From Nitrososphaerota archaeon (GTDB taxonomy: Archaea; Thermoproteota; Nitrososphaeria; Nitrososphaerales; UBA57), in NCBI GenBank assembly GCA_024860875.1, contig JACPSZ010000001.1:62001-126000 (forward strand): a stretch of 64,000 nucleotides of DNA, in the 5' to 3' direction. Within the stretch, counting starts at the first letter, position 1; each line of letters opens with the position of its first letter. Below, in pieces: positions 49,688-62,226 of this stretch. A program made the translations under genes and the position numbers. A model generated the notes under the pieces. It did no database searches. It was given only the letters and a program-made list of their open reading frames with translations, and was not told where the DNA came from.

Positions 49688-50756
49688 ATGTCGTTTACAG
49701 ATAGGGTTTGAAGGGCAAGAGAAGATCAGGAATGCTACGGTCACTGTAGTAGGTACTGGAGGGCTAGGAAGCCCCATCGCACTGCAACTTACTGCAATGG
49801 GCATAGGGAAGCTCAGGCTCGTCGACAGAGACGTAATAGAGCTCTCAAACCTCCACAGGCAGATACTCTTCAGCCCAGAAGATGTTGGTCTTCCAAAGGC
49901 TGAAATCGCAGTTAAGAAACTTCAGAAGTTGAACCCAGACGTAAAGTTTGAAACTCTAACATCATCATTAAACGATGACAGTGCAGAATACATCGTACGA
50001 GGTTCAGACATAGTAATAGATGGTTTGGACTCTATCTATGCAAGGTATGCTCTGAATAGGGCATGTCTGAAGCTTAACATTCCATACATATTCGGCTCTG
50101 CAATAGAGACTACTGGTTCAGCATCTACATTCATTCCGAAGAAGACTCCATGCCTTGAATGCCTGTATCCGAACTTGAGGGATGAAGACTTGCCAAAGTG
50201 CGGTACCGAAGGGGTCCATCCATCTGTACTTACAGTAGTTTCCAGCGTCCAGGTCTCTGAAGCCATAAAATTGATAGTTGGAAAAGAGCCGAGCCTTGCA
50301 GGATATCTATTCTACGCTGACATAAGGGATCTAAATTTTGATAAGATCAAGATTGCAAGGCAAGATGACTGCAAAGCCTGCGGTAATAATGCCAGCCTTT
50401 CAGAGCAAGTGCTTCCTCGCAAACTGGTCGAGGAAATATGCGGGAGGGAGCGGGGCAAGTCCGTTCATGTAGTAACTCCGAAAGAGGATTTGCAATTAGA
50501 CCTCATCGCAGTAGAGCATGAGCTCAGCAGGAGGGACCTCAAGATAAAGGCAAGAGGGAACTACGGTGTCACATTCTCTTATGGCCCAGAGATAAGTGTC
50601 AGCTTGGTAAAGAGCGGAGTCGCTACAGTAGTAGGTGCGAACACAGAACAGAAGGCGTTAGAAGTCTTTGACGAATTGGTGGTCTCTGGTTTGAGAACCC
50701 CGTTGAGAAAAGTCGATCCTAAATTCAAGGTAATGCTTGCTTCGCCAGCACATTAG
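49688..50756 (+). CDS. ThiF/MoeB-like adenylyltransferase, 5' end needs a frame change
   Basis: E1-like enzyme that adenylates the Gly-Gly tail of a ubiquitin-fold partner. From 49746 the frame encodes the ATP-binding loop 'VVGTGGLGSPIALQL', then 'LRLVDRDVIELSNLHRQ', 'DGLDSIYARYALNRACL', a zinc site 'CLEC...CKAC', and a C-terminal domain unlike MoeB rhodanese. An ATG at 49688 (MSFTDR) runs into a TGA after seven codons, while the conserved frame is +1 relative to it. No ATG, GTG or TTG exists in the conserved frame before 49746; the first ATG at 49797 lies inside the nucleotide-binding helix. The 5' end may be a deletion, an error or a +1 recoding site. Confidence 0.85.
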
Positions 50757-50784: not shown

Positions 50785-50802
50785 CTATTCTGTATCGATA
50801 AA
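50785..50802. repeat. Left attachment-site repeat of the integrated element
   Basis: The block is CTATTCTGTATCGATAAA; 15 of 18 bases match 56826-56843. Read on the minus strand it encodes Phe-Ile-Asp-Thr-Glu and a TAG stop, the same ending as aEF-2, with only synonymous changes (TTT for TTC, TAG for TGA). It marks the far boundary of the element. Confidence 0.75.
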
Positions 50803-50948
50803 TTTGTGGAAAAGCCCTAATAAATTAGCACTTAATACATTTTTGTATAATCCCCGAAGTCTAAAACGGCTAGATTTGGGCTTATTTAGACAAAAGAAGC
50901 AATATTCTAGGGGGTATATATAGGGTTATCACTTTGCCAAGATTTTCT

Positions 50949-51251
50949 CTACAATTTCGGTCTAAACCACTTCTTATCCGAAGGACACCATAGATCAGCT
51001 TCATTTGAAAATTTCAGAAGCATACTCCCGCATTTCGGACAAAGAGAACCGCTAGCCTCGCCAGCCATAGAAGGGGGAGACTTACTGACAATCCAGTTGA
51101 ACCCCTTGTAAGTAACTTTCGCAGTACCCCGAATCAGCTTGAAGACTACCACAAGAAATATCGTGATCAAAAGTAAGGGTATTCCAAGAAGAGGGATAAC
51201 AATCGCCAAAGCAACAAGGAATATCAACAATAGAAGCGGAAGAACTCCCAA
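50949..51251 (-). CDS. Membrane protein with C-terminal zinc ribbon
   Basis: 100 residues: two hydrophobic stretches ('LPLLLLIFLVALAIVIPLL' and a second to ~42), then 'CPKCGSMLLKFSNEADLWCPSDKKW' with three Cys, a partial zinc ribbon. It is probably a membrane-tethered small zinc protein of the element. Function unknown. Confidence 0.55.
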   Translation of the reverse strand: MGVLPLLLLIFLVALAIVIPLLGIPLLLITIFLVVVFKLIRGTAKVTYKGFNWIVSKSPPSMAGEASGSLCPKCGSMLLKFSNEADLWCPSDKKWFRPKL

Positions 51252-51301
51252 TGTATCGCCTTGCGATTATCATTAAGGTAGATTGCTAAATAACTTACCC
51301 T

Positions 51302-51337
51302 TTGACAAGCTTGACAAGGTTGACACCTCTGACATAA
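51302..51337. repeat. Four tandem 9-bp iterons
   Basis: TTGACAAGC, TTGACAAGG, TTGACACCT and CTGACATAA lie end to end with exact 9-bp spacing. This is an iteron-like array typical of replication-initiator binding sites in plasmids, located in a gene-free part of the element. Confidence 0.6.
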
Positions 51338-51374
51338 GCCGTTCTACATCCCAAAATCTGAAAATAAGTAAGAG

Positions 51375-51403
51375 TATATCCGCAGAGCAGAAATGCGGAT
51401 ATA
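51375..51403. repeat. 10-bp perfect inverted repeat
   Basis: TATATCCGCA (51375-51384) and TGCGGATATA (51394-51403) are exact reverse complements with a 9-nt spacer, 28 bp before the next small gene's TTG start. It could be a regulator-binding operator, or a terminator for an upstream transcript, close to the iterons. Confidence 0.5.
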
Positions 51404-51430
51404 TTCAATAAATTTAGGGTATTCTCTGAC

Positions 51431-51646
51431 TTGAAGGTAGATTATCACTATCGGAAGGGAAGAGGGCGAGGTTTCTATCGAACAACTAGGTTCTATGATG
51501 GAACTTTCCTAAGTGTTAAGAAAATAGGTGATTATGAACCCATAATTCAAGACCTTAAACCTCTAGGTCTGAGAGCGAAGATTGCAACATTGCTCTTTTT
51601 TATTAGCATCCTTCTTAACATCCTCTTCTTTTTGGGGATTCTCTGA
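51431..51646 (+). CDS. Small membrane-anchored protein
   Basis: 71 residues, TTG start. The basic N-half ('YHYRKGRGRGFYRTTRFYDG') is followed by a C-terminal hydrophobic helix ('LLFFISILLNILFFLGIL'), so it is probably a tail-anchored small protein of the element. I recognise no family; the preceding inverted repeat may control it. Confidence 0.45.
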   Translation: MKVDYHYRKGRGRGFYRTTRFYDGTFLSVKKIGDYEPIIQDLKPLGLRAKIATLLFFISILLNILFFLGIL

Positions 51647-51690
51647 TTTTGATGGGCTCTATGATGGGCTCTTGATGGCTAGAAAACCGC

Positions 51691-51740
51691 TTTTGTTGCA
51701 TTTTATCGCATTTTGTACGCTTTTAGAGGGTTTTGATCGC
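51691..51740. other. Five TTTT tracts phased every 10 bp (curved DNA)
   Basis: TTTT starts at 51691, 51701, 51711, 51721 and 51731, exactly 10 bp apart. T-tracts in phase with the helix bend DNA strongly, as found at plasmid origins and some promoters. It lies in the 175-bp gap between two element genes; no gene is visible there. Confidence 0.65.
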
Positions 51741-51820
51741 AGAATTGTACGGATATCGTAGTATAAGCTCAATTTAGGGTTCTGTTAACTCTTTCTAACA
51801 TAGCTGTTGGTGTTAACTAG

Positions 51821-52522
51821 CTAGAATTCTATCCTGTTCTCTAACTCCTGATTAGCATCTTCGATTTCAGTTTTCCATTTTGCCAGAGTTTCGGGCCTTG
51901 CTGTAATGTAGAGCTTCTTTTGCTGTATGTCTTTATAACGCATCAACGGGCCTTCCGAGCTGGTGATCTTAGCGATGTACCGGCCTGATGTTGTTGGGCT
52001 GATGCCAAATAACTCTGCACCTGAATTGATAGCTTCGGAGTAGGGTATTCTTTTCTTGGATTTCACGTGTGCCGTAAGCCAGCTCCTTAGATCATCTTCA
52101 GCGAAATCGTTAGCTTGCATTTCAGGTGAACCCTTGCTGTAATCCACGTTTTTGTGCATGAGTGTGGTTGCGTCTAAATTCTCTCTCTCACCTATGGCGG
52201 ACGGGGCTGTCTGTTTTAGCAAGGCCGTCTGCTTCCTGTCTTCTTTGGCATTGCAGGAATGGCAAGACAGTCTTAAGTTTGAAGCTACATGCTCTCGTCT
52301 TTTGCCGTTAATGTGATCGACGTCATAGGCATAAGGATTTGGGAGTACTGCCTTGCAGGAAAAACAAAAATTACCATCTCTTATTAGCAGATAATCTATT
52401 GCTCTCTTTCGAGGGTTTCCCCTGAGCCGATCTGCGTAGCTAAAGACGTGTTCAGGGGTTATGGTGATGTTTTGAACAATTTTCTCTCTCTCCGAGGTGG
52501 GTGAGGGTGGCGGAGCTGACAT
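51821..52522 (-). CDS. HNH endonuclease
   Basis: 233-residue protein with a central HNH nuclease: zinc-binding 'NFCFSCKAVL', 'YDVDHINGKRREHVASNLRL' with the HNH Asp-His and second His, then 'SCHSCNAKEDRKQ'. The C-half resembles a winged-helix ('LRSWLTAHVKSKKRIPYSEA', 'LFGISPTTSGRYIAKI') that may read DNA. It is likely a homing- or restriction-type nuclease carried by the element. It is last in a three-gene minus-strand operon after the 67-residue and zinc-ribbon proteins. Confidence 0.88.
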   Translation of the reverse strand: MSAPPPSPTSEREKIVQNITITPEHVFSYADRLRGNPRKRAIDYLLIRDGNFCFSCKAVLPNPYAYDVDHINGKRREHVASNLRLSCHSCNAKEDRKQTALLKQTAPSAIGERENLDATTLMHKNVDYSKGSPEMQANDFAEDDLRSWLTAHVKSKKRIPYSEAINSGAELFGISPTTSGRYIAKITSSEGPLMRYKDIQQKKLYITARPETLAKWKTEIEDANQELENRIEF

Positions 52523-52537
52523 AGGGTTAGCAGCTCG

Positions 52538-52741
52538 CTAAGTCATTTTTTTGAAGAGTGCATCCCTAGCTTCTTTTTCTGACATCAATCTTAAGCAGAT
52601 TTTGACTAGGTTAGCATATCCATGAGAGTCTAGCTGATCATCGGAGGCCAGGATAACCTGTCTTACTGGATCATCGATCGGCCGTTTCCTAGCTAATTCT
52701 TTAAGTTCCGAAATAGAAACTAATCCTTCAAAGACATTCAT
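52538..52741 (-). CDS. Small helical protein upstream of the HNH nuclease
   Basis: 67-residue acidic/helical protein ('SISELKELARKRPIDDPVRQ', 'ANLVKICLRLMSEKEARDAL'). It overlaps the preceding zinc-ribbon gene by 4 bp and precedes the HNH gene by 15 bp. It could be an immunity or regulatory partner of the nuclease, but this is position-based inference. Confidence 0.55.
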   Translation of the reverse strand: MNVFEGLVSISELKELARKRPIDDPVRQVILASDDQLDSHGYANLVKICLRLMSEKEARDALFKKMT

Positions 52742-52893
52742 CTAGAAGGTTTCTCCTTTGGTTTCTGGTCTAACCGTTTATGGCACCGTGGACACATAAC
52801 GGGGTTTGCAACCCGCAAGGGCCATTGATACGAACACTTTGGGCATTCTCCAAATTCTATAAGCTTCTGCATTGTTTGCGTATAAATCATCAT
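52738..52893 (-). CDS. Small zinc-ribbon protein
   Basis: 51 residues with 'CPKCSYQWPLRVANPVMCPRC', a two-CxxC zinc ribbon. The ATG at 52893 (or 52890) has a TATA-like CTATAATAG about 27 bp upstream, in the shared divergent promoter. Its TGA overlaps the next start (ATGA), making the operon zinc ribbon, 67-residue protein, HNH nuclease. It was found by direct reading. Confidence 0.65.
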   Translation of the reverse strand: MMIYTQTMQKLIEFGECPKCSYQWPLRVANPVMCPRCHKRLDQKPKEKPSR

Positions 52894-52929
52894 AAGGTTT
52901 ATATCTATTATAGGCAATGAAGGCTTAAT
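52894..52929. promoter_or_regulatory. Divergent promoter region of the element
   Basis: TTTATAT at 52898-52904 lies about 28 bp before the ATG at 52930 (plus strand), and a TATA-like TATAATAG on the minus strand serves the zinc-ribbon operon. The two start codons are only 36 bp apart, so both genes are leaderless and could be co-regulated. Confidence 0.6.
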
Positions 52930-53490
52930 ATGTCGTCAGAAAAAGGCAATAAGAGGCTCCCACCTATACGGATAAAGAAAATCTTGCCGAACAAGCTAAA
53001 GGACTTCGAAAAGAGATTACCAAGCAGTGGGGGGTTATTCACTAAGAGAAAGAGGTTAAGGTTGCTTGGAAAGCTTAGGGGTAGAAGGCCCGAAGGAGAG
53101 CCCAGCATTCAAAGCACGGATTTCTGGTTCGATGTAAGACAATCCGTCAAGGCGGGCCTGTATGATCTTGAGATGTTGATCGAAACGGCCCCAGAAAAGG
53201 AACTAACTAAAGTAATAACAGCTGAAGCTCTAAAGCCATCCGTTCAATCCCTTCTCTGGAATACTGCACTTGGTTTACCTCCTGATCCTAATAGAGCTAG
53301 GATAGCTCAAATGCTCATTGAGCAAGGTTTCGGATATCTTGGATTGGCGGTGCGAAATAAAATAACTCTATCTCATGGAAGGACAATACAAGAAGCTATT
53401 GATTTGGCCAACTTCTTGGCTGAATCAGCCAAACCCGAATCAGAGAGAAGGTATAGCCAGCCCAACTTAAAGGCGTTAATGCAGCGTTGA
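52930..53490 (+). CDS. Basic hypothetical protein of the element
   Basis: 186 residues; the first ~55 are strongly basic ('RIKKILPNKLKDFEKRL', 'FTKRKRLRLLGKLRGRR'), the rest acidic to neutral and helical. It is probably a nucleic-acid-binding protein, but no family is recognised. It shares the divergent promoter and lies just upstream of the ATPase gene. Confidence 0.55.
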   Translation: MSSEKGNKRLPPIRIKKILPNKLKDFEKRLPSSGGLFTKRKRLRLLGKLRGRRPEGEPSIQSTDFWFDVRQSVKAGLYDLEMLIETAPEKELTKVITAEALKPSVQSLLWNTALGLPPDPNRARIAQMLIEQGFGYLGLAVRNKITLSHGRTIQEAIDLANFLAESAKPESERRYSQPNLKALMQR

Positions 53491-53527
53491 AAAGCTTTAA
53501 ACCTCTGTTCAGCATAGCATTATCTTA

Positions 53528-54136
53528 ATGCCAACCTCTCAGGTTCATTGGTCTGTCAATGCTGACACTAATCGAAAAGTATCGGCATTGGTAAAAGAGA
53601 TGGGTTTCAGGAATAGGGAGCAAGCCCTTTTAGCATTAGTAGAAACTCAAAAAGACAAGATCGTCCCCTATGTTTCCTATGAGAATATATTCAATTCTCC
53701 TGCTCCGTGTATTATAACAGGAGAGCCATATACAGGGAAAACAACTTCGATCAAGAACCTAATTCCTGAGATCAAAGGCTCTATTCTCTGCATCGATCCT
53801 CATAACGAATATGACATGCTCAAGAAACACTCAGGAAGTTCTATTCAGTTTAACAGATTGCAAAGGATTAGAATTATTCCTTCTCAAAACCCCTTTGTTT
53901 CTGAAGCTCAGATAACTAGCCTCTTCATGAATTTGAATGAAAGTAGGGAAAGAATGAAGGGTTGGACATTAATCATTGATGAAGCTCATAGGTTCGCTAA
54001 GGTTGATCTTGTTAGAAGCTTCATAGCAGAGGCTAGGAAGTTCAACATTAAGGTCATAATCATAACCTCAGACTTTCCGAAATTCTTAGGGCTTGGTTAT
54101 GTTCTAAAGCCTAAGCCTTTGGTAGTTTTACAATAA
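53528..54136 (+). CDS. P-loop ATPase with HerA-like motifs and an N-terminal ribbon-helix-helix
   Basis: 202-residue protein in two parts. Residues ~6-40 ('VHWSVNADTNRKVSALVKEM' then 'RNREQALLALVE') look like a ribbon-helix-helix DNA-binding domain. Residues ~58-200 hold Walker A 'ITGEPYTGKTTS' (65-73), 'LCIDPHNEYDM', which echoes the DPHxEY motif of HerA/FtsK-type ATPases, and Walker B 'TLIIDEAHRF' (147-156). Small viral packaging ATPases (such as STIV B204) have similar size and motifs. A TATA-like TTTAAAC lies about 35 bp upstream. It may act in replication, packaging or partition; fusion with a DNA-binding domain favours partition or replication. Confidence 0.75.
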   Translation: MPTSQVHWSVNADTNRKVSALVKEMGFRNREQALLALVETQKDKIVPYVSYENIFNSPAPCIITGEPYTGKTTSIKNLIPEIKGSILCIDPHNEYDMLKKHSGSSIQFNRLQRIRIIPSQNPFVSEAQITSLFMNLNESRERMKGWTLIIDEAHRFAKVDLVRSFIAEARKFNIKVIIITSDFPKFLGLGYVLKPKPLVVLQ

Positions 54137-54160
54137 CCGAAAGATCCGAACAAATGCCAA

Positions 54161-54739
54161 TTAAGGTATCTTAGATTCGGCCTTACGAGCAAGCTCTTTC
54201 AACAATTCGAAGTCAGTTATCGTACCGCTTATGCTGAAGGTTTCGTGAATGTTCTTTTTCTGGAAAACTACCCAGTAGGTTCTCCCAGATGAACTATCTC
54301 TTTTGAATGCAAAACTCCTATCTCCTATGTTAGAAATAGTTAGTTGTTCGTCAGCTGAGAAACCTTCCATGCTCAATTGGAGTACTTGATTCATACTCTC
54401 TGCGGGATAAAATGAAATATGCTGCTCTATTCTTGTTGTGTTCAATAGGCCTCCGATCCTAGCAAAACTTACTTGATATCCCTTGATCCACCCCAATTCC
54501 CGTGCGTCAGCAGATACGTCAATCCTTCTCCGTTCAGATCGATCCACTAAACCAAAACCGGGGGGAAGGTCTGATTGACTGATAGCTAATTCATGTGGTT
54601 CCACTGGTTTGGCTAGAAGAAGTCGCCCTGCAATAGGCATAGATGTGCTACCTATCTGAAACCCATAGAAAAACGCAACACCTGTGGAAAGAACGGCGAA
54701 AATTGTGATAATGAGTAAAGTCCTCGATACCGCTCTCAA
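54161..54739 (-). CDS. Membrane-anchored hypothetical protein
   Basis: 192 residues with an N-terminal hydrophobic anchor (~6-26) and an extracytoplasmic domain ('ISQSDLPPGFGLVDRSERRR', 'FAFKRDSSSGRTYWVVFQKK'). No family is recognised. It is a minus-strand gene within the element, on the opposite strand to the ATPase. Confidence 0.5.
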   Translation of the reverse strand: MRAVSRTLLIITIFAVLSTGVAFFYGFQIGSTSMPIAGRLLLAKPVEPHELAISQSDLPPGFGLVDRSERRRIDVSADARELGWIKGYQVSFARIGGLLNTTRIEQHISFYPAESMNQVLQLSMEGFSADEQLTISNIGDRSFAFKRDSSSGRTYWVVFQKKNIHETFSISGTITDFELLKELARKAESKIP

Positions 54740-54820
54740 TGCTTTTGAAGTATTTCGCAGTCTCTTTTATAGCTTGTTAGTTTCCCAATTTGACTTAGAT
54801 CGGCAGTTTCACAATAAAAT

Positions 54821-55117
54821 CTAGCTTTCCCCTATTAACTTCCGTATCTCAGTTATCCGATTAGGATTAAGAGCAATTTGTGTACCATATCCTGTTGGCT
54901 TAGGAATGATAAAACCGTCTTTGATTAATTCTTTAACGGCCTTCATTGCTTCTCCTTTCAGATGTTTGGGCATACCTCTTACCACGCTTTCAATATGTGC
55001 ATGCCTAGCACCTATTATCCCATGTCCATAGAGACGTCGGAGTATTGTAAGCTCCAACTCTTCCAATCTGATAACCCGAGCAAATCCTTGAATTACGGTA
55101 TTTGAATATTTCTTCAA
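54821..55117 (-). CDS. Winged-helix-like regulator
   Basis: 98-residue helical protein ('LEELELTILRRLYGHGIIGA', 'GEAMKAVKELIKDGFIIPKP', 'YGTQIALNPNRITEIRKLI') with the order helix-helix-recognition-wing typical of a small winged-helix protein. It is divergent from the wHTH gene at 55176. It probably controls element genes. Confidence 0.6.
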   Translation of the reverse strand: MKKYSNTVIQGFARVIRLEELELTILRRLYGHGIIGARHAHIESVVRGMPKHLKGEAMKAVKELIKDGFIIPKPTGYGTQIALNPNRITEIRKLIGES

Positions 55118-55175
55118 GGAAACGATATCATAGTCGAATAGAAGATTTATTTACGTATAGATAGAAGGTAAAATC

Positions 55176-55541
55176 ATGCAGAAGGTTTCCGCTAACCATG
55201 AAGAGGACTTGGTAAATCCAGCTGCGCTTAGAAAGATCTTGGGGGATTCTGCCATGGTAAGGCTCTTAGACTTTCTCACCACTAACAGGAGGCTAGATTA
55301 TTCAAAGACTGAAATAGCGAAATACTCTGGCATTGGATGGAAAACGATCTTTAAGCTCTGGCCCATGCTTGAGAAATACAATTTGGTAAAGTTGACAAGG
55401 AAGGTTGGGAGGGCCAAACTGTACAGGCTAAATATCGAATCCCCGATCGCAAAGACTCTGGATAGGTTGGCATTGCAGATAGCAGACTTTGACAATGAAC
55501 CTTTAATCAAGAAGCAAATCATGCAGGCAGCTTCACAATAG
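55176..55541 (+). CDS. ArsR-like winged-helix regulator
   Basis: 121 residues with helix-turn-helix 'YSKTEIAKYSGIGWKTIFKL' (~42-61) and a wing 'LVKLTRKVGRAKLYRLN'. A TATA-like ATTTATTT lies about 28 bp before the ATG. It is divergent from the winged-helix gene at 54821 and convergent with the integrase, overlapping its 3' end by 23 bp. It may be a repressor of the element. Confidence 0.72.
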   Translation: MQKVSANHEEDLVNPAALRKILGDSAMVRLLDFLTTNRRLDYSKTEIAKYSGIGWKTIFKLWPMLEKYNLVKLTRKVGRAKLYRLNIESPIAKTLDRLALQIADFDNEPLIKKQIMQAASQ

Positions 55542-56769
55542 CCGAACTGTCAGGGAGGCTAGCAACATATTCCCAACCCTGCACTATGTAGTTTTTGACT
55601 TCCTTCATGGGAATGACCTTCTGTCTCGATCCGTTAGTTGTCATTTTGTTCTTAAGTTTCTGATCTAACCCCTTTTGAATTAGTTCCATGAACTCTTCAT
55701 TTGACAGGCCGGTTATGTCAACTGTGGGCGGAGGTTCAGGTGAATAGGCAATCATCAACATGGTCATTTTCGTATTCATGTTATCAGTCTGCTCAACTCT
55801 GTCCATCGGCCTCACGGCTAGCTTGGGAAGTGCAACCCTGTAAGAGTCCCTTAACTGCTCCTCCGTTGGCCTTGAATATGCTCCTCCTTGTGAACCTCTG
55901 GGTATGTGTCCTAGCAGATAGTCAACCCAATTCAAAGGAATACCTGAGCTTTCAAGAATAGTCTGAGCTCTCTTCCGTAAAATATGGCCGTGAAATTCCT
56001 TCAACCCCTTCTTATTGGCATTTAACCCAACCTTGAAACCCAATTTAGCGATCCTTGTTATTGTAGTAGTCTTTGCGAGGGGTTTCCTATTCTTAGAAAC
56101 AAAGAGATATGAGTCATTGGTAATTTGCTCTCCCTGTTTCTGTCTTATCTTGATAAATTCCCTTAACGAATTAACGGTATCTCTCCCAATGAAAGCAACG
56201 TAGGGAATATTCCCTTTCGTTATCTTTGAAGGAAACCTGACAATACAGGGAATTTTGTCAGATCCATAATCCTCTTTGATATGTCCATACTTCAACTGTA
56301 AAACTGAGCCGATCCTAGCACCTGACTCTATCAACATATACAGAAGAGGCCTTAATGCACCTTGAGCGATAGTGCATAGTTTGAAGAGCTCTTCATTTGA
56401 AGGGATCTTCTCAATTTCACGCTTTGGAGCTGGTCTTTGAATTGAAATCTCTAGGGGTAAATGGTTCGCATTATAGAAACTCTTGACATAAGACGCTAGG
56501 GTATCCCCTCCTTTTGTATTGTTAGCAAACGCCTTTAGGGTATCTTCGGTTCTGAACCTGACTTTTACATTCTTTGAAAGGGACTCTTTTGTCCTTTCGT
56601 CAATGAGCTGGTCAGGGTTCTTGTCTAGTGCCTTCTCATAACGGTATATCGAATATAGGGCATTTCGAATTGTGTTCTGTGAATTGTTTCCTAGCTCATT
56701 GAGCCATGTTTGTATTGATGAATAGTTTCGAAGTCTTTCAAATTCAACCTTCAGGGAAACGGTTTCCAT
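55519..56769 (-). CDS. int: Tyrosine recombinase (integrase)
   Basis: 416-residue tyrosine recombinase that catalyses site-specific integration and excision. The catalytic residues are visible: Arg152 ('SGARIGSVLQLK'), Lys ~182-185 ('SKITKG'), the HxxR box 'FHGHILRKRA' (His262, Arg265), His288 ('LLGHIPRGSQGG') and nucleophile Tyr298 ('AYSRP'). The extra C-terminal ~110 residues are acidic and helical. It lies 57 bp from the aEF-2 stop, beside the right attachment repeat, as expected for an element inserted there. Confidence 0.93.
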   Translation of the reverse strand: METVSLKVEFERLRNYSSIQTWLNELGNNSQNTIRNALYSIYRYEKALDKNPDQLIDERTKESLSKNVKVRFRTEDTLKAFANNTKGGDTLASYVKSFYNANHLPLEISIQRPAPKREIEKIPSNEELFKLCTIAQGALRPLLYMLIESGARIGSVLQLKYGHIKEDYGSDKIPCIVRFPSKITKGNIPYVAFIGRDTVNSLREFIKIRQKQGEQITNDSYLFVSKNRKPLAKTTTITRIAKLGFKVGLNANKKGLKEFHGHILRKRAQTILESSGIPLNWVDYLLGHIPRGSQGGAYSRPTEEQLRDSYRVALPKLAVRPMDRVEQTDNMNTKMTMLMIAYSPEPPPTVDITGLSNEEFMELIQKGLDQKLKNKMTTNGSRQKVIPMKEVKNYIVQGWEYVASLPDSSAIVKLPA

Positions 56770-56825
56770 ATAGAGCCTTTAGGTTGGCACTATATATAGT
56801 TAGATAATTCATTGGCATAAAGTAG

Positions 56826-56843
56826 TCATTCTGTATCGATGAA
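56826..56843. repeat. Right attachment-site repeat (aEF-2 3' end)
   Basis: TCATTCTGTATCGATGAA; its minus-strand reading is the aEF-2 ending Phe-Ile-Asp-Thr-Glu-TGA. It matches 50785-50802 at 15 of 18 positions. It forms the crossover point of the integrated element, leaving the aEF-2 coding sequence intact. Confidence 0.75.
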
Positions 56844-59047
56844 CTCGCTTGCCTGAGGAGGTTCTGGCGAGAGGCCCTTCCTCTTCCTGATGTCAGTTAT
56901 CAGCGTGGGTAATATTGATGCTGGAACCTGAGACCAAGCCTTGAAGTGAGTGTTCCACAGGGCCTTGCCTGCAGTCGCACCTCTCATGATTTCAGAAAGG
57001 TCGAAGGTTTCTGATGCTGGAACTTCTCCTTCTACAATCGTCACGATTTCCTTTTGCTCAACGTTCAGCATCTTTCCTCTTTTGGACGATATTACGCTTG
57101 CAATTGCACCTATCTGCTCGGCTGGACATTTGACTTCTATGCCAAGCATCGGCTCGAGGAGTGTTGGTTGTGCAGAAAGCATAGCACCAAGAATGCCCCT
57201 CCTTGAGGCTGGCATCAGCTGCGCGTATGTTCTGTGAGCGGGGTCTTCGTGAGGAACATAATGATGCAGAATTACTTTGACCCCCCTGCAGTATTCGCGG
57301 GACAGCGGCCCTTCTTCCATAACGTCCTCAAAGCCAGATCTTATGGAATCCATTGACTCCTGGAGGTACTGTACACCTTTTGTGGCGTCTAGCAGGATGT
57401 TTCCTTTGTTGTCGATTGTAACGACGCTCTTGGCTTCGTCAGAATCCCATCCCAAATCTCTTAGCGTCTTTGCAAGCTGCTTCTTATCCGTGTTTTCGTT
57501 GATCTGACCCGTTCTGATCAATTCGACTATGTTGTCTGGCAATGCTTCTACGCGCATGAATATCTTGTTGTGCCTGTTCGGAGACTTTGACATTATTGGA
57601 CCAGCCCTTCCCCTTATGGTCTCCCTGTAGTTGATTAATGGCCGTGAAGTGACAATCTCTAGTCCTGCTTGCTGTATGAGCGTCGTAGCTATTTCTAAAT
57701 GCAAAACTCCCATGCCTGAAAGGAGCATTTCTCCAGATTCTTCATCGATTTTTACTACAAGATTAGGGTCTTCGATGCTAAGCTTTCGTAATTCTTCAAC
57801 GAGCTTTGGAAGCTCCTTTGGATGCTTCGACTCTATAGCGATTGTGACTACTGGCTCTGAAACGTACTTTATTGCTTCGAAGGAAGCTACGTCTTTGATC
57901 GTGGAGATGGTCTCTCCTGATCTTGCATATTCTAAGCCGAGAAGTGCGGGGATGTTCCCTGCTGACATCGTGCCAATAATTTCCCTAAACGGCCCCATGT
58001 ACATGTTTACAGACTGAATTCTTCCCTCCCTCTTTGCGCCGAGCAAGTAAACTGTATCGCCATCACGTACAGTTCCAGAGTATAATCGTCCTGTGGCGAC
58101 AACGCCTGCCTGAGGGTCAACAACTACATTTGTAACCATCATGACTATGGGCCCTTTTTCGTCGCATGCAAGAAGAGCCTTACCAACATCACTATTCAAA
58201 TCGCCTTTCCAGATTTTTGGAATTCTGTAAGGCTGTGCAACATGGGGAGGAGGATGGTGTTTGACGACCATGCCGAGAACCGCTTCGTGTAGCGGAGATT
58301 TTTCCGACAGTTCCTTTACTCCGTCTTCGGTGTAAGCCTTGTATATGTCAGAAAATTTAACGCCTGTCTTCCGTGCCATGTCAAAGTTGAAGCCCCAGCG
58401 GTCTTTTGCAGAACCAAATGAAACTGTACTACTTTGAATGCTTACCTTCCACTTTTCCTTGTACTCTGGCTCTGCATAAGCATCGATAAGGTTGTTAAAA
58501 TCGCTGACAATATCTGCCAGCCATGCTTGCATTTTGTCCGCGGTAAGCCTCAGCTCCTTCACGAGACGGTCGATCTTGTTGATGTAGAGAACTGGTCTAA
58601 CTCTCTCTTCAAGTGCTTGCCTGGTTACAGTCTCTGTTTGCGTCATTATACCTTCTACAGCATCCGAAACTACTACAGCACCATCAATGGCCCTGAGACT
58701 TCTGGTAACTCTACCTGTAAAATCTATGTGCCCGGGGGTATCGATCATGTTGATGACGTACGGTTTTCCCTCCTGTTCGTAGTATAGAGTAACATTAGCA
58801 GCTTTGATGGTCATCTGGCGCTGCTGTTCAAGTGGCATAAAGTCTAGAGCAAGGGCTTGACCAGCGATTGAGGGGCTTAGCATGCCGCAGGCAGCCAAAA
58901 GGCTGTCGCTCATCGTAGTCTATTCGGCTGAGAGAGGTTTCTCACTCAGTTTCCGTGATCTACGTGAGCTATGACCCCAAAGTTCCTGATCTGGTTCTTA
59001 TTCCCTACGACCTTCATTACTTCTGTCGTTGACTTGTACTTTGGCAA
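56826..59047 (-). CDS. fusA: Archaeal elongation factor 2, interrupted by a 29-nt intron
   Basis: GTPase that drives ribosomal translocation. After removal of 58922-58950 the frame encodes 730 residues from TTG 59047: 'MPKYKSTTEVMKVVGNKNQI', P-loop 'AHVDHGKT' (27-34), G2/G3 'RQMTIKAANVTL' and 'MIDTPGHIDF', G4 'NKID', domain IV with diphthamide-type 'HEDPAHRT', and the conserved end with FIDTE. Without splicing the frame stops at GGA-AAC-TGA right after His-Gly, or the protein starts only at ATG 58913 and lacks the P-loop. A TATA-like TATATAT lies near 59089-59095. The stop overlaps the attachment repeat of the mobile element. Confidence 0.93.
58922..58950 (-). other. Predicted bulge-helix-bulge intron (29 nt) in the aEF-2 gene
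   Basis: Minus-strand order is exon GGAA, intron ACTGAG...CGAAT, exon AGACTACG. Helix CGG/CCG plus an A-A mismatch forms the central part, with a 3-nt bulge AAA on the 5' side and ATA on the 3' side; CTGA/TCAG and GAGA/TCTC form the inner stem and CGTAG/CTACG the outer one. The cuts give Lys33 codon AAG from A plus AG. It is 29 nt long, not a multiple of three, and contains an in-frame stop. Confidence 0.8.
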
Positions 59048-61983: not shown

Positions 61984-62226
61984 ATGGCCAAGGCTGAGCA
62001 GATAACCACGGACAGGAAGACGATGAGAGAGATACTCAGATTTATGGAGGAGGCCGTTAAAGAAGGCCTCAATAGAAAAGAGATAATGAGCCAGATAGAC
62101 CTAATGCTCGATATAGGAGCACAGAGAAACATTAAGCGGAGCGAGAAGGAGATAAGGCAAGGCAAAGCTAAGAATTTCAAGAGCGCTGAAGAAGCAATAG
62201 AGTGGCTGCATTCAGAAGAAGAATAG
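61984..62226 (+). CDS. Antitoxin-like protein
   Basis: 80 residues from ATG 61984: 'EILRFMEEAVKEGLNRKEIM', 'RSEKEIRQGKAKNFKSAEEA' and the terminal 'IEWLHSEEE'. The Lys/Glu-rich C-terminal tail ('EIRQGKAKNFKS') resembles RelB/VapB-type antitoxins paired with RelE toxins, and the next reading frames are a RelE-type toxin. Mostly helical, with no certain DNA-binding motif. Confidence 0.6.
   Translation: MAKAEQITTDRKTMREILRFMEEAVKEGLNRKEIMSQIDLMLDIGAQRNIKRSEKEIRQGKAKNFKSAEEAIEWLHSEEE

Follow-up and report, generated by a model that had tools for sequence, protein, structure and literature searches.

A 6,041-bp element lies at the 3' end of the gene for archaeal elongation factor 2 (aEF-2) in a Nitrososphaerota archaeon (GTDB lineage Nitrososphaerales; UBA57), and it very probably arrived there by Campbell-type site-specific integration carried out by its own tyrosine recombinase. 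We studied it in a window of 64,000 nucleotides, the whole stretch of DNA analyzed (positions 62,001 to 126,000 of contig JACPSZ010000001.1, assembly GCA_024860875.1), and all coordinates below are those of the window. Its genome is referred to as G000, that of a sister species as G001, and three further genomes of the same family as G003, G004 and G006. A preliminary description of the window had proposed integration precisely at the aEF-2 3' end with the protein left intact, a proposal now borne out by empty orthologous sites, a second occupied site and a 695-residue aEF-2. The argument turns on the following features.

49797..50756, plus strand: thiF/moeB-like gene, the host neighbor, convergent with aEF-2 at empty sites
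50785..50802, minus strand: distal copy of the attachment site (att), TTTATCGATACAGAATAG, with its 13-bp core at 50787-50799
55519..56769, minus strand: tyrosine recombinase (integrase), 416 residues, intact, PF00589 (Phage_integrase), Pfam E-value 4e-15
56790..56799, minus strand: TATA-like sequence ahead of the integrase start codon (ATG), matched in position by TTTATATA in G001
56802..56821, minus strand: element-end sequence TTTATGCCAATGAATTATCT adjoining the core, kept in the G001 element as TTTATGCTAATGAAATATCT
56826..56843, minus strand: gene-side att copy, TTCATCGATACAGAATGA, the last five aEF-2 codons and the stop
56826..58913, minus strand: aEF-2, the target gene, 695 residues from the ATG used, intact, with all EF-G/EF-2 domains

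The two att copies are 18-nt direct repeats (50785-50802 and 56826-56843) that agree at 15 positions, 13 of them contiguous. On the aEF-2 strand the gene-side copy consists of the codons TTC, ATC, GAT, ACA, GAA and TGA, and the distal copy of TTT, ATC, GAT, ACA, GAA and TAG; both translate to F-I-D-T-E-stop, and the repeats and their purely synonymous differences are thus as first described. The 13-mer ATTCTGTATCGAT has exactly two copies in the 1.67-Mb genome, at 50787-50799 and 56828-56840, and none of 100 dinucleotide shuffles of the window yielded two matches with one mismatch allowed (mean 0.13). The 6,041 bp between the copies have a lower GC content (0.39-0.43) than the flanks (0.45-0.48), and the repeats at both ends match the empty chromosomal site, as expected of a Campbell-type element. 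On the sequence evidence, we assign everything below 50787, including the TAG, to the host and everything above 50799, including the TTT, to the element.

The preliminary description had named the lack of an empty site in any relative as the observation that would speak against integration, and such sites are present in G003, G006 and G004. In G003 the stop codons of aEF-2 and the thiF-like gene are 35 bp apart and aEF-2 ends in FIDTE followed by TAG; the matched coding regions of the two genes are separated by ~96 bp in G006 and ~151 bp in G004. In the small-genome genus g2, one gene that looks acetyltransferase-like by eye lies between them. Joining the window flanks gives TTCATCGATACAGAATAG-TTGGGGTT (in longer form ...GCGAGTTCATCGATACAGAATAGTTGGGGTTAACC...), an ordinary aEF-2 end of FIDTE-TAG as in G003, and this can be aligned with the joined G001 flanks, GAATAG-TTTGGGGTT (in longer form ...GAATAGTTTGGGGTT...). 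Given these joined flanks, the TAG of G003 and the hybrid repeats, the current TGA stop of aEF-2 was therefore brought by the element. The distal repeat had been taken for the element's duplicate of the gene end; this needs to be turned around in part, since the distal TAG and the DNA downstream of it are the host's original end and it is the TGA now closing aEF-2 that is element-derived. Among 34 aEF-2 loci examined across the order, the F-I-D-T-E ending that matches the att core is found only in G000, G001, G003, G004 and G006, the others ending mostly in IDKE, IDRE, IDNE or IDKD.

The recombinase reported beside the right repeat is indeed there. Its gene begins 56 bp beyond the stop codon of aEF-2, and R152, K185, H262, R265, H288 and Y298, the full R-K-H-R-H-Y set, are all present and invariant across three relatives; the closest solved relative is archaeal XerA (5hxy). 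Kin of this integrase were seen within its own family only, at identities of 69% and 52%, and the next matches are at ~35%. A scan of named genomes returned one match, JACZWF01 (Thaumarchaeota archaeon isolate B1T1B5; 52%), whose contig ends inside the integrase and which agrees in length and identity with the same-family match on contig C133 of G004 (4,061 bp). Among phages, plasmids and viral contigs searched for kin of the integrase or of the element's ATPase (described below) none was close, with plasmid and phage matches under 32% identity. Such an integrase lies within 1.5 kb of aEF-2 at 2 of the 34 loci, those of G000 and G001; in G057 an integrase is found 18 kb past aEF-2, but no repeat is common to both. 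A suicidal integrase of the Sulfolobus spindle-shaped virus (SSV) type was considered and rejected because the 416-residue gene is intact and att lies outside it. Separately, the last ~50 integrase residues (NGSxQKVI...GWxYV..LP...IVKLP) match short open frames of ~40-60 residues at 49-57% identity (G025:C19:15210-15362, G001:C1:706900-707016, G050:C4:25-174 and G010:C1:904789-904878), and these frames are either what is left of integrases or a small domain in its own right.

We envisage recombination between a short attP on the element and an attB made up of the last aEF-2 codons. On the simplest reading, before insertion the host end would have been TTC...TAG and the element attP TTT...TGA, with no mutation needed, and strand exchange at a crossover placed inside ATCGATACAGAAT would yield the two hybrids now present. 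The aEF-2 bases 5' of the crossover would remain those of the host, those beyond it, the TGA stop among them, would come from the element, and the old host stop (TAG) with its downstream DNA would be displaced to the far end. The protein would still end in ...EFIDTE, the gene being restored by a few bases on the 3' side of the crossover. The integrase, which adjoins aEF-2 behind its TATA-like sequence and is presumably driven from its own promoter, would excise a ~6-kb circle whose junction would read CACAAATTTATCGATACAGAATGACTACTTTATG, leaving a restored chromosomal site GCGAGTTCATCGATACAGAATAGTTGGGG. Excision to a 6,041-bp circle is plausible, and the element may be active at present and move from cell to cell. 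The mechanism itself is ordinary and of a kind already known.

A second occupied site is provided by G001, in which 5.5 kb are inserted between aEF-2 and the thiF-like gene. The integrase of this insert shares 69% identity with that of the window element and has the same position and direction. The cargo of the insert, a pyrroloquinoline quinone (PQQ)-dehydrogenase-type gene and a zinc-finger gene, has no counterpart in the window element, the integrase being the one gene shared. The repeats of this insert share only GAATAGTT (11/12, one mismatch), and a full five-codon match is therefore not required; the earlier suggestion that the element supplies the terminal codons is right in that the gene is left intact, and overstated in that not all five codons are needed. 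Beside the core, TTTATGCYAATGAAWTATCT is present in both elements and has exact matches in the family at those two places only, which makes the conserved element-end sequence a candidate for integrase binding or promoter function. The PQQ-dehydrogenase-type gene of the G001 insert (L075 7592-9945, contig C2) has its signal-peptide part and its body in overlapping different frames, perhaps as a result of a frameshift. The family abounds in PQQ-dehydrogenase-like genes, with 31 matches in G000 and 27 in G001.

G001 carries another element, of ~9 kb (C7:2258-11338; L110), in tRNA-Ala(GGC), with a 12-bp att CCTCCCGGTCCA and genes for a Prim-Pol and a D5-type helicase. Its zinc-finger protein closely resembles, by eye, that of the G001 aEF-2 element, and it encodes a homologue, 57% identical, of the ATPase of the window element. 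Thaumarchaeal integrated elements have been described as sharing genes in this way. A PQQ dehydrogenase was considered as cargo of the tRNA-Ala element and rejected, as the 12-bp att at 2258 leaves the gene outside.

The same gene end is also used by casposons, which we located by the coordinates of Cas1 and aEF-2. Four of those in families f8 and f10 of the order have complete ends: 8.8 kb in G101, 4.1 kb in G104, 14.0 kb in G113 and 5.6 kb in G088. All four duplicate the last EF-2 codons, for example TTTATCGATAAAGAATAA (G101 TTTATCGACAGAGAGTAAAAA, G104 TTTATTGATAAAGCATAA, G113 TTTATCGATAAAGAATAAA, G088 ATAGACAAGGAGTAAAA), and each has strong terminal inverted repeats. In these families, elements with Cas1 at the 3' end of aEF-2 occupy loci L178, L179, L180 and L181, and also L176, L177 and L183; that at L180 spans only 4.1 kb between repeats and has a 78-nt perfect terminal inverted repeat, and at L183 (G122) the aEF-2 end seems altered, the reading after EF being unlike FID.E. 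That a Cas1 casposase might likewise have produced the window repeats by target-site duplication, the interior having later been replaced by an integrase-bearing element, draws on the duplication of exactly these codons by casposons of the same order; we nevertheless consider it highly improbable. Cas1 (PF01867) was not found in G000-G009, that is, in the window genome and its family; a search for terminal inverted repeats in the window element scored 9, against a shuffled mean of 8.9 and 27-78 for casposon controls; and a Pfam scan of the element's open reading frames found no PolB. Moreover, the copies differ on both outer sides, like attL and attR, a duplication would have to be followed by three substitutions, two affecting the stop codon, and the G001 repeats share a different block, GAATAGTT. 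The same codons are duplicated by casposons, while the window element has no such inverted repeats and its family no Cas1; the same ~18 nt therefore serve two enzymes that are unrelated to each other. We see an even chance that the last five aEF-2 codons and the stop are a common docking site in the order, used independently by Cas1 casposases and by a family of tyrosine recombinases adapted to the IDTE ending specific to this archaeal family, with rival elements competing for one essential-gene end.

The repeat is short, at 13 bp, which leaves room for the idea that the match is due to chance and the 6 kb are ordinary genome. This can practically be dismissed: there are two copies only in 1.67 Mb, exactly at the aEF-2 end and at the insert/host junction predicted by the empty sites, an integrase adjoins, GC is below that of the flanks, and the empty sites of G003, G006 and G004 refute it. 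Several observations do weigh against integration as we read it, namely that the empty sites all belong to other genera of the family, that no circle junction was observed, that neither an attP match nor a free form of the element was found in viral contigs, that no replication protein was recognized in the element, and that synonymous divergence (dS) between G000 and G001 is similar for the integrase (1.32) and the thiF-like gene (1.12). The last of these favors a single insertion before the two species split, followed by replacement of the cargo and distal end while the integrase end persisted, as does the fact that the first ~60 bp beside aEF-2, and the integrase, can be aligned between them. 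However, synonymous sites are near saturation and dS decides little, the distal ends are unalignable, the att blocks differ (ATCGATACAGAAT versus GAATAGTT), no other gene is shared, and the aEF-2 stops differ (TGA in G000, TAG in G001); at the protein level, identity is 69% for the integrase, 96% for aEF-2 and 89% for the thiF-like product. A single ancestral insertion, which is compatible with Campbell-type integration at aEF-2, thus seems to us unlikely, and given that the cargo is unrelated, the distal ends cannot be aligned and the stops differ, we favor two separate insertions.

The remaining genes of the element are as follows.

50949..51251, minus strand: membrane/zinc-ribbon-like protein, 100 residues
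51821..52522, minus strand: HNH endonuclease-like protein, 233 residues
52538..52741, minus strand: 67-residue protein, no family
52738..52917, minus strand: zinc-ribbon-like protein, 59 residues
52930..53490, plus strand: 186-residue protein, no family, with weak homologues elsewhere in the order
53528..54136, plus strand: P-loop ATPase, 202 residues, with weak AAA_22/HerA/terminase-type matches
54161..54739, minus strand: 192-residue protein, no family, hydrophobic segment at the N terminus
54821..55117, minus strand: 98-residue protein without a family match, perhaps winged-helix as judged by eye
55176..55541, plus strand: winged-helix-like regulator, 121 residues, of a protein family widespread in the order

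Pfam and PHROGs scans matched only the integrase, the HNH protein, the ATPase weakly, and zinc- and winged helix-turn-helix-like proteins, and recognized no capsid, conjugation or replication gene. The likeness of the ATPase to the terminase/HerA region is weak (phrog_2666, E-value 2e-9), and the predicted fold of the 186-residue protein gave no usable model (predicted local distance difference test score 44). On its gene content we class the element as a cryptic integrated element (CIE), that is, one that bears an integrase and is without viral or conjugation hallmark genes. Outside the element, the thiF-like gene of the window is missing 44 nt near its start relative to G001 (49688-49797), which breaks the frame; either the gene is damaged or the assembly is in error.

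A translation-factor gene had at first been thought an unusual target, which is overstated for this phylum. Of 68 mapped thaumarchaeal elements, 39 are in tRNA genes, 15 are intergenic and 14 are in protein-gene 3' ends; EF-2 is listed four times, and ef-2 is the commonest thaumarchaeal casposon target (Krupovic et al. 2019, PMC6563490; for ef-2 as a casposon target see also Krupovic et al. 2014, PMC4046053, and, for the NitAR1-C1 casposase, PMC6614799). No account of a tyrosine recombinase at ef-2 was found in the literature searched, which did not extend to subscription papers and supplementary tables and is no proof of priority. What is new here is the pairing of enzyme and target, together with a convergence with casposons that we did not meet in that literature. 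The element is a clean and testable example of an integrase whose target is an essential protein gene rather than a tRNA gene. Use of the ef-2 end by casposons as well suggests that archaeal mobile DNA generally finds safe harbors in conserved codons at the 3' ends of essential genes, and the small integrase and short att of the element could seed a site-specific integration tool for archaea.

Among known systems, the thaumarchaeal CIEs are similar in several respects. NitEve-E2, for instance, has a 13-bp att and a host TAG replaced by an element-derived TAA (PMC6563490), and shares with the window element the length of att, insertion into the 3'-distal coding part and a stop codon supplied by the element, whereas its target is a zinc-finger gene rather than aEF-2. 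Such CIEs also have small cargo with winged helix-turn-helix and other small proteins, often with no recognizable replication gene; the window element differs from them in a host family rich in PQQ-dehydrogenase genes and in an integrase family seen only in its own family. Family 1 casposons likewise target the last aEF-2 codons and stop and leave the protein unchanged, but do so with a Cas1 casposase, terminal inverted repeats, a true target-site duplication and PolB, none of which was found in the window element. The tRNA-Ala(GGC) element of G001 differs in its tRNA target, its distant integrase (~25%) and its own Prim-Pol and D5-type helicase, and resembles the window element in its related ATPase, its 12-bp att and a recombinase with the same type of C-terminal tail.

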